Made by a program: the position numbers and the translations under genes
The notes under the pieces: generated by a model
Told to the model about the DNA's origin: nothing
Databases searched by the model: none
The model's input: only the letters and a program-made list of their open reading frames with translations
Shown: one piece after another, positions 49,084-52,503 of the stretch
Layout: every line of letters starts with the position of its first letter
How positions within the stretch are numbered: position 1 is the stretch's first letter
NCBI GenBank assembly: GCA_004296455.1
Contig: AP018280.1
Location: 7,118,794-7,182,793, forward strand
Direction: 5' to 3'
DNA length: 64,000 bases
DNA from: Calothrix sp. NIES-4101
GTDB taxonomy: Bacteria > Cyanobacteriota > Cyanobacteriia > Cyanobacteriales > Nostocaceae

Positions 49084-49731
49084 CTAAGGATAAAGAGGGG
49101 ATTTCGTATCCAGACCACCAACTTTATTTAGGGGCCAAAACCGAACTACTGCACGTCCAATGATGTTTTCGCGAGGTACAAGACCCCAACAACGTCCATC
49201 ATAGCTTTGAGTCCGATTATCACCAAGTACAAGATATTGACCTTTAGGAATCGTAGTTGGTTGGTATAAAAAAGGTGGATTTTTTCCCGATGTACAAACT
49301 TCAATTGATGTACGCTCTTTGTCTTTACTGAGATAATTGGTCTCTGGAAGTTGTTTCCCATTGATAAAGACGTTACCTTCTCTAAGTTCGACTTTTTCTC
49401 CCGGTAAGCCGATTACACGTTTAATAAAAGCATCTTGATAATCTTCTTTTTGTAGTTCGGCAGTGGGTGAAAAGACAACGATATCACCACGTTGCGGGTC
49501 AGAAAATTTATACTTTAATTTATCGACTATTATTTTATCTGCTTCCCACTGATTTGTCGTTCCGTGCAGAGTCGGTTCCATTGAACCAGAAGGTATCCAT
49601 CGTGCTTCTGCCACAAATGTGCGAATTCCTAAGGCGAGGAGAATACTTAGTACAACAGTTCTAAGCAGTTCTGCAATCCACGAATTATCTGGTTGTTGGT
49701 TTGAGTTTTGATCGGACACTTGATTTTGCAT
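49084..49731 (-). CDS. lepB: Signal peptidase I
   Basis: Membrane serine protease that removes signal peptides from exported proteins. 215 residues: one N-terminal membrane span (about 17-37, IAELLRTVVLSILLALGIRTFVA), catalytic serine in IPSGSMEPTL, box C GDIVVF, catalytic lysine in AFIKRVIGLPGEKVEL, and boxes D and E with LGDNRTQSYDGRCWGLVP. Both members of the Ser-Lys dyad are present. ATG at 49731. Length and single span are usual for cyanobacterial LepB. It is divergent from pyrC. Confidence 0.97.
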   Translation of the reverse strand: MQNQVSDQNSNQQPDNSWIAELLRTVVLSILLALGIRTFVAEARWIPSGSMEPTLHGTTNQWEADKIIVDKLKYKFSDPQRGDIVVFSPTAELQKEDYQDAFIKRVIGLPGEKVELREGNVFINGKQLPETNYLSKDKERTSIEVCTSGKNPPFLYQPTTIPKGQYLVLGDNRTQSYDGRCWGLVPRENIIGRAVVRFWPLNKVGGLDTKSPLYP

Positions 49732-49981
49732 GGAATCACTAGATTAATAGCTTGATACGCAGTTACATTGACTTGTTTAGCAGAAGAAACTATATTGATC
49801 AATTCATTTAGTCATAGGCAAGATGCATATTAGTAGTGTAACTATCTTGACAGGATTTTCGTGAGCTAAAGTGAATTTTTTTGTCGGAATTGGCAATTTT
49901 TTTTTTTGCAGTGCAACCAAGTCTAACCTAAAAGAATAGTTGTTTGTAAAATCGAACTGTTGTGCAAACGCATTTACCTCT

Positions 49982-51310
49982 ATGACATCTCCTACTAATT
50001 TACTTATTCGCCACGCTCGTATCATTTTACCGAATGGTGAATTGATGGTTGGGGATGTACTCACACGCGATCGCGTCATCGTCGAAGTTGCACCCCAAAT
50101 ATCGACTTTAGCTGAACCAATAATAGAAATTGACGCTTCGGGATTAACTTTGTTGCCGGGGGTTATCGATCCGCAGGTGCATTTCCGGGAACCGGGATTG
50201 GAATATAAGGAAAATCTGTTTACTGCAAGTTGTGCTTGTGCCAAAGGTGGAGTGACTTCCTTTTTGGAAATGCCGAATACCCGACCTTTAACTACGACTC
50301 AACAAACTTTAGATGACAAGTTGCAACGTGCCTCCCAGAAGTGTCTGGTTAATTATGGCTTTTTTATTGGGGCTACGTCAGAAAATTTACCCGATATTCT
50401 CTCGGCACATCCGACACCGGGAATTAAAATTTTCATGGGTTCGATGCATGGTCAGTTGTTAGTCGATAATGAAGTGACACTGGAAGCGATATTTTCTCAA
50501 GGGACGCGCCTCATTGCTGTTCATGCAGAAAACCAAGAGAGAATTAACCAACGTCGGCTGGAATTTGCAGGTATTACCGATCCCGCAATTCACTCCCAAA
50601 TTCAAGATAATCAAGCAGCACTAGAAGCGACGCAACTAGCATTAAAACTTTCTCAAAAATATCAGCGCCGGTTACATATTCTGCATATGTCCACCGCAGA
50701 AGAAGCGGAATTACTGCGTCAGGATAAACCAAGTTGGGTGACATGCGAAGTCACACCACAGCATTTACTCATGAATACGAGTGCATACGCCAAGATTGGT
50801 ACTTTAGCGCAGATGAATCCCCCATTGCGATCGCCCCACGATAATGAGGTACTTTGGCAAGCTTTGCGCGATGGTATTATCGATTTTATCGCTACTGACC
50901 ATGCGCCGCATACTTTAGAAGAAAAAGCCCAACCTTATCCCAAAAGCCCTTCGGGAATGCCTGGAGTCGAAACTTCCTTAGCCTTAATGCTGACTGCGGC
51001 AAAAGAAGGAAAATGCACTATTGCTCAAGTTGTCAACTGGATGTCAACAGCAGTTGCAAAAGCTTATGGAATAACCAACAAAGGTGAGATTAAAGCTGGT
51101 TATGATGCTGATTTAGTTCTTGTTGACTTGGATAATTATCGCCCTGTCTTACGTCAAGAACTCTTTAGCAAGTGTGGTTGGAGTCCTTTCGAGGGATGGA
51201 ACTTAACCGGATGGGCACATACAACAATCGTTGGTGGTCAGATTGTTTACCAAAATGGGAAGTTATTTACTGAGATACGTGGACAAGCTTTGCAGTTTGA
51301 AAATTCTTAA
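49982..51310 (+). CDS. pyrC: Dihydroorotase (type I-like) with Q in place of the first metal histidine
   Basis: Amidohydrolase that closes N-carbamoyl-aspartate to dihydroorotate in pyrimidine synthesis. 442 residues from ATG 49982 (a TTG at 49940 is less likely). Seen: GVIDPQVHFREPGLEYKENL, where the usual HxH reads QVH; the carboxylated lysine in GIKIFMGSMHG; histidines in AVHAENQE and HILHMSTAEE; and aspartate in IATDHAPHT. The C-terminal barrel edge GEIKAGYDADLVLVDL is typical. The Q variant occurs in a dihydroorotase subgroup, but loss of a zinc ligand is worth noting; it might be a non-catalytic partner form if another pyrC exists in the genome. Single gene. Confidence 0.85.
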   Translation: MTSPTNLLIRHARIILPNGELMVGDVLTRDRVIVEVAPQISTLAEPIIEIDASGLTLLPGVIDPQVHFREPGLEYKENLFTASCACAKGGVTSFLEMPNTRPLTTTQQTLDDKLQRASQKCLVNYGFFIGATSENLPDILSAHPTPGIKIFMGSMHGQLLVDNEVTLEAIFSQGTRLIAVHAENQERINQRRLEFAGITDPAIHSQIQDNQAALEATQLALKLSQKYQRRLHILHMSTAEEAELLRQDKPSWVTCEVTPQHLLMNTSAYAKIGTLAQMNPPLRSPHDNEVLWQALRDGIIDFIATDHAPHTLEEKAQPYPKSPSGMPGVETSLALMLTAAKEGKCTIAQVVNWMSTAVAKAYGITNKGEIKAGYDADLVLVDLDNYRPVLRQELFSKCGWSPFEGWNLTGWAHTTIVGGQIVYQNGKLFTEIRGQALQFENS

Positions 51311-51740: not shown

Positions 51741-52319
51741 ATGGCCTCTTAATTATGCGGAAAAAAACTTATCGGTTTTTACTGATTAGCAATTCTACTG
51801 AATGAATACTATTTCTAAGTAAATATTCAAGGTTTTATCAAGAGTAAAGTATTGATTTGAATATTTACCCAAATCACAATAAATTGCCCTTGATAGATTT
51901 TTTGTTTACGAAAAAATACTCAGGTGAAAGTAAAAACTCTATGTAAAGCTTAATGAAAAGTGAATGATTAATCAGGTTACTAATGACAGTTGATAAGTCA
52001 AAAAAACTTTTAACCAAGCTCAATTTATGGATATTTAAAAGATTACAAATCAGTAGGATATCCCATTATTTGAAATTCGAGATAGATTACTGGCTAACAT
52101 GGTTCAGCTTGGTTTCATTCATGAATTATCAAACGCTTTTGCGGTTATTAATTCAAGCTTTAGGGGAATTTCCCCGACAATATATAAATTTTTGAAGTCA
52201 ATTTATGAAGTTTATGAAATTGAAAAATCATTTGCTCCAAGAGGACTTTAGTAAATTTTGATTTTCAGAATCACTCTTTTTAATTATCTTCGTCATCAAT
52301 TTAAACAAAAGGAGAAATT

Positions 52320-52466
52320 ATGATTTTTTTAAATGACGATCGCGGTAGCGGTAGAATCCAAAACATGACATTTTCAGATGATCGCGGTAGTGGTAGAATC
52401 CAAACAATCGTATCTTCAGATGACCGAGGAAGTGGCAGAATCAGAATTTCTGCATTTTTCTACTAA
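52320..52466 (+). CDS. Triple-RGSGR peptide: three tandem PatS-like pentapeptide units
   Basis: A 48-residue ORF with three 14-residue tandem units. RGSGR sits at residues 8-12, 22-26 and 36-40, each time inside DDRGSGRI. RGSGR is the C-terminal pentapeptide of PatS, also found in HetN and PatX, which binds the heterocyst master regulator HetR; the PatS tail is CDERGSGR, so the preceding D-D/E is shared too. AAAGGAG lies 7 bases before the ATG, an in-frame stop lies upstream, and a 12-bp hairpin follows the stop codon. Between unit 1 and unit 3 six of eight core codons differ, all synonymously. There is no signal peptide. Each copy is followed by isoleucine, so release of active peptide would need cutting or internal action as in HetN. 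Role is inferred, not shown. Confidence 0.85.
   Translation: MIFLNDDRGSGRIQNMTFSDDRGSGRIQTIVSSDDRGSGRIRISAFFY
52335..52440 (+). repeat. 42-bp coding tandem repeat (three units)
   Basis: Core blocks start at 52335, 52377 and 52419 with exact 42-base spacing. Each block reads GAY-GAY-CGN-GGN-AGY-GGY-AGA-ATC. Cores keep the protein sequence; the spacers between them (NMTFS, TIVSS) vary. Confidence 0.9.
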
Positions 52467-52471
52467 ATTTT

Positions 52472-52503
52472 ATCTCCCCGAATATTTAAGGATTCGGGGA
52501 GAT
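52472..52503. terminator. Strong hairpin between two convergent genes
   Basis: Perfect 12-base stem ATCTCCCCGAAT / ATTCGGGGAGAT with an 8-base loop, 6 bases past the RGSGR ORF stop and 35 bases from the stop of the convergent sigma-factor gene. Probably a terminator for both; the U-run is weak. Confidence 0.75.

Follow-up and report, generated by a model that had tools for sequence, protein, structure and literature searches.

In the window, i.e., the whole 64-kb stretch of Calothrix sp. NIES-4101 DNA that was analysed, a short gene lies on the forward strand at 52320..52466, and its position 3′ of pyrC, its orthologues and the NCBIfam profile NF047415 identify it, with high confidence, as a patS gene with three tandem PatS units. 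The reading frame translates to MIFLNDDRGSGRIQNMTFSDDRGSGRIQTIVSSDDRGSGRIRISAFFY*, a product of 48 residues in which RGSGR is found at residues 8–12, 22–26 and 36–40 with a period of 14 residues, and DDRGSGRI forms the core of all three units, an acidic pair preceding every RGSGR. The motifs are located on the forward strand at 52341..52355 (unit 1), 52383..52397 (unit 2) and 52425..52439 (unit 3), as given by translation, a DNA pattern scan and codon comparison. A ribosome binding site, AAGGAG (52309..52314, forward strand), is placed 5 nt before the ATG, and an in-frame TAA (52302–52304) lies five codons 5′ of it; purine-rich stretches also precede the tandem orthologues when the upstream sequences are compared. 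The original prediction, made from the sequence alone, had described this 48-codon frame with its repeat, its core, its upstream stop and its ribosome binding site, and the translation of 52320–52466 and the upstream coordinates confirm all of them. The six codon differences that it had noted between core 1 and core 3 are indeed all synonymous, so that unit 3 differs from unit 1 by synonymous changes only. A degenerate DNA pattern for the motif has three matches in the 64-kb window, all of them in this ORF, sharing one frame with 42-nt spacing; 0.37 matches are expected in the shuffled window, and three matches anywhere were reached in 1 of 100 shuffles. The product continues beyond the last RGSGR with the tail IRISAFFY, i.e., the motif is not C-terminal, and by inspection it lacks a signal peptide. 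This absence had been taken as a difference from PatS, which is wrong: according to the part of PMC12756182 that was available, the signal peptide is a feature of PatX and not of PatS.

Two syntenic markers accompany the gene. The first, 5′ of patS at 49940..51310 on the forward strand, encodes a dihydroorotase with the Pfam domain Amidohydro_1, which we take to be pyrC, and is the same neighbour that is found in single-copy patS loci. The second, at 49084..49731 on the reverse strand and recognized by tblastn synteny, encodes what is presumably a lepB-like signal peptidase. The comparison set consisted of 20 loci around PatS-profile matches in genomes other than that of NIES-4101, of which two come from beyond the window's family. 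The succession of lepB, pyrC and a single-motif PatS, in identical order and orientation, is present at 14 of these loci; at another one (L081) the three genes are close by but rearranged, and the lepB–pyrC pair is absent from five, one of which (L092) has no RGSGR ORF. Among ten further non-tandem patS-like loci (L205–L212, L220 and L221), the lepB–pyrC–patS order occurs in three (L205, L206 and L212), and tblastn synteny has revealed it at the loci of all ten tandem genomes described below. The whole protein reaches 33.1 bits against the PatS equivalog NF047415 in hmmscan, the cut-off being 30. This pass needs the summing of three stretches: in the genome-wide profile search, a single stretch gives 17.5 bits, and several of the tandem genomes (e.g., G001, G002 and G431) have no match at E ≤ 1.5. 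Because the pass is a sum of stretches, orthology with patS rests mainly on synteny and alignment. An order-wide search with the PatS profile found 19 of 388 genomes above the cut-off; below it, 9 of 14 control genomes were matched as well (7 of 14 at a stricter limit), so that weak matches to this profile alone are noise. Other identities have been rejected: PatX, as its profile NF047413 gives this ORF 7.2 bits versus a cut-off of 30 and inspection reveals no signal peptide, and HetN, as a product of 48 residues without a Pfam match is hence without the ketoacyl reductase domain. The presence of a second, canonical PatS in this genome has been discarded too, since the best PatS-profile match (E 0.0644) among the matches listed is this very locus. 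The link to PatS and HetR that had been proposed from the motif is thus borne out in a stronger form, the gene being a patS orthologue by locus, gene order and sequence, and it is filed as a PatS variant, not as canonical PatS, because its tail extends past the last RGSGR; ending at RGSGR is typical of PatS, though the profile does not demand it.

A profile made from eight tandem PatS proteins was run against 217 genomes of the window's family, presumably the Nostocaceae of GTDB. Strong matches (E ≤ 1.9e-13) were obtained in ten genomes, three from the window's genus and seven from a second genus (g30), and the match ranking next belongs to an unrelated polyketide-synthase-like protein. Two motifs are found in seven of these genomes, all of g30, three motifs in two and four in one; in the window's genus, Calothrix sp. 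NIES-4101 and G002 have three and Calothrix elsteri CCALA 953 (G001) has four, and the named records of g30 are Calothrix PCC 7716, PCC 7103, HK-06, FI2-JRJ7 and NIES-4105, and Dulcicalothrix desertica PCC 7102. The search for orthologues in related genomes has therefore yielded the same gene, with two to four motifs, in nine genomes besides that of the window. In a PyrC plus LepB tree of 27 loci, the ten tandem loci form one clade with an ultrafast bootstrap of 100, and the sister of this clade among the sampled loci is G022 (bootstrap 100). As this sister harbors a single motif with a C-terminal extension, the tree suggests that extension may have come first, followed by duplication and then by more amplification in the window's genus. 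Tandem-motif PatS was absent from the literature searched, which comprised open-licence papers without the 2018 PatX survey. This agrees with the original prediction, whose author knew of no characterised three-copy PatS, and within the open-licence literature searched the two to four motif copies, not the usual one, appear to be new for PatS.

The ten tandem proteins contain 24 RGSGR motifs, all identical as collected by exact string match, and no degraded motif copies (at least 3 of 5 residues matching) are present in them. The motif codons vary, the first R being encoded by AGA, CGC or CGA. When six representatives are pooled, pS is 0.56 and pN 0.05 in the core, this pN coming solely from the averaging of CGC–AGA paths, against a pS of 0.60 and a pN of 0.34 in the first spacer; across the tandem genomes, the spacers diverge while the motifs stay intact. 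The distance between motifs is 14 residues in NIES-4101 and 15 in the nine other genomes, indels among the orthologues are in-frame, and the start is conserved in all ten. Purifying selection on the motif, which had been deduced from the units of a single gene, is thereby supported by the orthologues, both in the count of intact motifs with synonymous differences only and in the Ka/Ks-type contrast between core and spacer pN. A chance repeat or minisatellite is ruled out, because the motifs show none but synonymous differences and ten genomes have kept the gene. It could also be argued that only one unit matters and that slippage or the loss of a stop codon produced the other copies in this lineage, where they persist without a special role, as the number of motifs varies within the genus (3, 3 and 4) and other genomes of the family have C-terminal extensions without extra motifs. 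This appears improbable, since none of the 24 motifs in ten genomes is degraded, their changes are synonymous only while the spacers have strongly diverged, and at least two motifs are kept in both genera of the clade. Still more remote is the idea that the ORF is untranslated, or that what is conserved is an element of the RNA or the DNA: the ORF is very short and the genus has an almost unchanged non-coding block upstream, but the synonymous-only variation of the motif, the in-frame indels, the conservation of the start and the purine-rich leader in ten genomes and the orthology with patS all speak for a translated gene. A ribosomally made, modified multi-core (RiPP-like) peptide unrelated to HetR is hardly credible; it would share the multi-core architecture only, RiPP modification and export domains are absent from the five neighbouring proteins scanned, and the locus is the patS locus.

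The context of the motif was studied in 157 RG(S/T)GR ORFs of fewer than 170 codons from selected loci of the window's family, and the PatS census includes chosen loci among the matches listed (E up to about 0.08) plus other loci, so that it is not a full count. In this sample, 123 ORFs stop exactly at the motif, none of them being multi-motif, and 34 carry a tail, nine at tandem loci and 25 with a single motif. The count of the residue following the motif is given for the single-motif tailed ORFs found with the profile, because the A1-based search favours I/V at that place: 18 of these 19 have F/I/L/V directly after the motif (16 F, one L and one I), the exception being R in L342, a doubtful ORF. 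With a background frequency of 0.27, such a result would arise by chance with a probability of about 1e-9, and with 0.35 the probability is 8e-8; because the sequences are related, these values overstate independence. The background of F/I/L/V in nine window proteins is 0.29. The six tailed single-motif ORFs found with A1 have F/I/L/V next in 6 of 6, and the tandem clade has I or V after all 24 motifs. This residue may belong to a processing site or provide an extra contact with HetR. The C-extended single-copy PatS proteins (e.g., L090, L095 and L206) resemble the tandem gene in having a pyrC-linked locus and an internal motif that is followed by F or I, and differ from it in having one motif only.

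The DNA flanking the gene differs among patS loci. Of 20 non-tandem loci, 10 have the DIF1 sequence TCCGGA at 516–643 nt upstream, a distance that resembles its position in PCC 7120, where the DIF1 of patS precedes by 35 bp a start point located at −580 (PMC7377430, available part). It is located 155–156 nt upstream in 4 of 7 two-copy loci and, in contrast to canonical PatS, it is absent within 700 nt upstream from all three loci of the window's genus, the expectation from mononucleotide shuffling being 4% of loci. Since only these fractions of the non-tandem and two-copy loci have TCCGGA, DIF1 is not universal among patS loci. A combined pattern of DIF1 plus a −10 element matched 0 of 30 loci and is uninformative, like its one-mismatch form, as canonical loci were also unmatched, and a sigma-70 promoter scan gave 5 matches versus 6.7 in shuffles. 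Between pyrC and patS, a non-coding block at 51898..51962 on the forward strand is near-identical in the three congeneric genomes while its surroundings diverge; it is a candidate promoter or regulatory region, and a candidate replacement for the DIF1 promoter. Downstream of patS, between convergent genes, the hairpin that had been predicted is real: the stem-loop at 52472..52503 (forward strand) has a 12-bp stem, −20.1 kcal/mol and a z of −4.9, and 0 of 200 shuffles were as good, though it has no T-run and is absent from the terminator-scan list. That scan gives a weaker site at 52435–52453, which overlaps the end of the ORF.

Of 30 genomes searched for HetR, the target of the inhibitor, only G043 gave no match, and the 29 with HetR include the ten tandem genomes. 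In the available part of PMC4649674, PatS6 contacts E253, E254, D256, D270 and D278 of HetR, and R223 is compared with the C-terminus of PatS6; all six residues are conserved in 10 of 10 tandem genomes. The same source, to the extent available, gives HetR an affinity of 7 nM for ERGSGR versus 227 nM for RGSGR, and assigns to E254 and D256 the holding of the amino end of ERGSGR (PMC4649674). Some substitutions have been observed elsewhere: residue 254 is T and not E in G022 (L171) and G451 (L149), both of which have a C-extended PatS, the HetR of G451 additionally has D256N, and D278 is N in G129. All ten tandem genomes, that of NIES-4101 included, also encode a single-copy PatX above the cut-off, separate from the tandem gene.

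PatS is the peptide signal that keeps adjacent cells from differentiating into nitrogen-fixing heterocysts. The proposed model, which is probable, is that tandem PatS would be a multi-copy precursor whose cleavage would release several peptides that inhibit HetR. In a Calothrix-type lineage, the patS coding sequence would have been extended beyond the usual terminal RGSGR, and a unit formed by a hydrophobic stretch, an acidic pair, RGSGR and then I/V would have been amplified to two, three or four copies. The cytosolic precursor would be expressed in differentiating cells, and peptidases would cut it, as proposed for single-copy PatS, giving up to three RGSGR peptides. These would pass into neighbouring cells and bind the hood domain of HetR, taking it off DNA. 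As the precursor would be cut into several peptides, copy number would set the inhibitor yield per translation and thus have an effect on dosage. In the sources as far as available, it is proposed that processing shortens PatS-17 to about 8 residues (PMC4133259), and the processing of PatS is probably cytoplasmic (PMC4133259, PMC12756182). The tight binding of ERGSGR through its amino end favours the release of short peptides, and cleavage is favoured over binding of the uncut chain because the latter has no free peptide ends. Cleavage right after RGSGR may be dispensable, since complementation of a patS mutant has been reported for a patS-like protein from Arthrospira whose motif is internal (Zhang 2009, cited in the available part of PMC2821919). 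It is equally possible that HetR is contacted by the residue that follows each motif, which would count against the precursor.

The main alternative is that the uncut tandem peptide would be a multivalent HetR ligand, occupying both hood clefts of the dimer or neighbouring dimers, which would provide avidity and a longer-lived, less mobile inhibitor. The motif spacing is nearly fixed (14 residues in NIES-4101 and 15 elsewhere) although spacer residues vary, two PatS6 are bound per HetR dimer (PMC4649674, available part), and internal motifs are present in HetN (PMC7761841, available part) and in most PatX sequences read, all of which would suit such a ligand. It is nevertheless less likely, as high-affinity binding makes use of the free amino end of the hexapeptide (PMC4649674, available part), and a chain of 48 residues should travel less well between cells. 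In addition, the accessible text of PMC12756182 describes a signal-less PatX with an internal motif as giving no two-hybrid interaction with HetR, the hexapeptide being reported to bind.

Multi-motif, PatX-like secreted proteins are found in 5 of 14 genomes of another family (f9) of the same order. The protein of G043 (L103:9904–10506) has 11 RGSGR motifs plus one degraded copy and scores 34.1 bits with the PatX profile, that of G129 (L137:1228–2265) has 17 motifs and scores 26.1, below the cut-off, and G072, G094 and G223 (L139, L140 and L141) have three-motif proteins that are not among the PatX matches listed. For the last four proteins "PatX-like" is our own label, because they are below the cut-off or not among the matches listed. 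These proteins with 3 to 17 copies suggest more than one origin of motif amplification. When the 11-copy protein served as the query across the order, 21 of 388 genomes gave a match at E ≤ 0.001; among the loci read, multi-copy RGSGR beyond the window gene was confined to the five f9 genomes, the match in G360 being without a locus. A multi-copy match in G524 (L219:4975–10551) was rejected as a different, polyketide-synthase-like protein; this 1859-residue KS-AT-ACP protein has four tandem EEDERGTGRVNSIL repeats, and a g70 relative in G511 (L218) has one copy. In G043, HetR was unmatched although the genome is about 99% complete.

Other RGSGR-bearing sequences have been noticed. A HEAT/phycobilisome-lyase-like protein of NIES-4101 (C1:5310580–5311320; L213:581–1321) has the C-terminus VPSRGSGRRI, and several g30 genomes have ORFs of 244–247 residues that match the PatX profile weakly, their identity with that protein not being implied. 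A 12-residue PatS-like ORF, MKFASDDRGSGR, occurs in g5 and g9 (L208, L209, L220 and L221), and the 18-kb stretches around it have no pyrC-like match. In yet another family, an ORF at L105 (G374) contains NERGSGRGRETGSGRVGD, in which RGSGR stands beside a second RGSGR-like motif.

Among the known systems, HetN is similar in having an internal RGSGR that acts on HetR (PMC7761841, available part), but it is a putative ketoacyl reductase (PMC4649674, available part) and not a small peptide. PatX (NF047413) is also a small RG(S/T)GR protein that acts on HetR, with the multi-copy PatX-like forms of f9, but its own Sec signal peptide is absent from tandem PatS. The closest likeness is to PatS of Nostoc/Anabaena PCC 7120 (asl2301, NF047415), in the locus 3′ of pyrC, the short length without a signal peptide, the N-terminal style of M, hydrophobic residues, acidic residues and RGSGR, and a whole-protein profile score above the cut-off. 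Canonical PatS has one terminal motif, whereas the NIES-4101 gene has three, non-terminal and each followed by I. The yeast alpha-factor is a multi-copy peptide-hormone precursor that is secreted and cut at dibasic sites; the likeness lies in the several active-peptide copies per precursor, and homology is not claimed.

For one-dimensional patterns of the Turing type, PatS is the textbook example of a diffusible inhibitor, and the natural series of one, two, three and four copies at a single locus lends itself readily to testing inhibitor dosage, and also the cut site of PatS and the need for a free RGSGR end. The F/I/L/V residue that almost always comes after an internal RGSGR of PatS likewise gives a specific hint, open to testing, of either a processing site or a wider contact with HetR. 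Tandem amplification of HetR inhibitors, with 2–4 units in PatS and 3, 11 and 17 in PatX-like proteins, could be a recurrent and convergent tuning of a morphogen, a proposal that is put forward tentatively, with slightly more doubt than belief. If it is true, the spacing of the pattern would be adjusted through inhibitor dosage, with the number of units as a heritable dial. The heterocysts of Calothrix are basal, and it may be speculated that the dosage dial is linked to this basal position.
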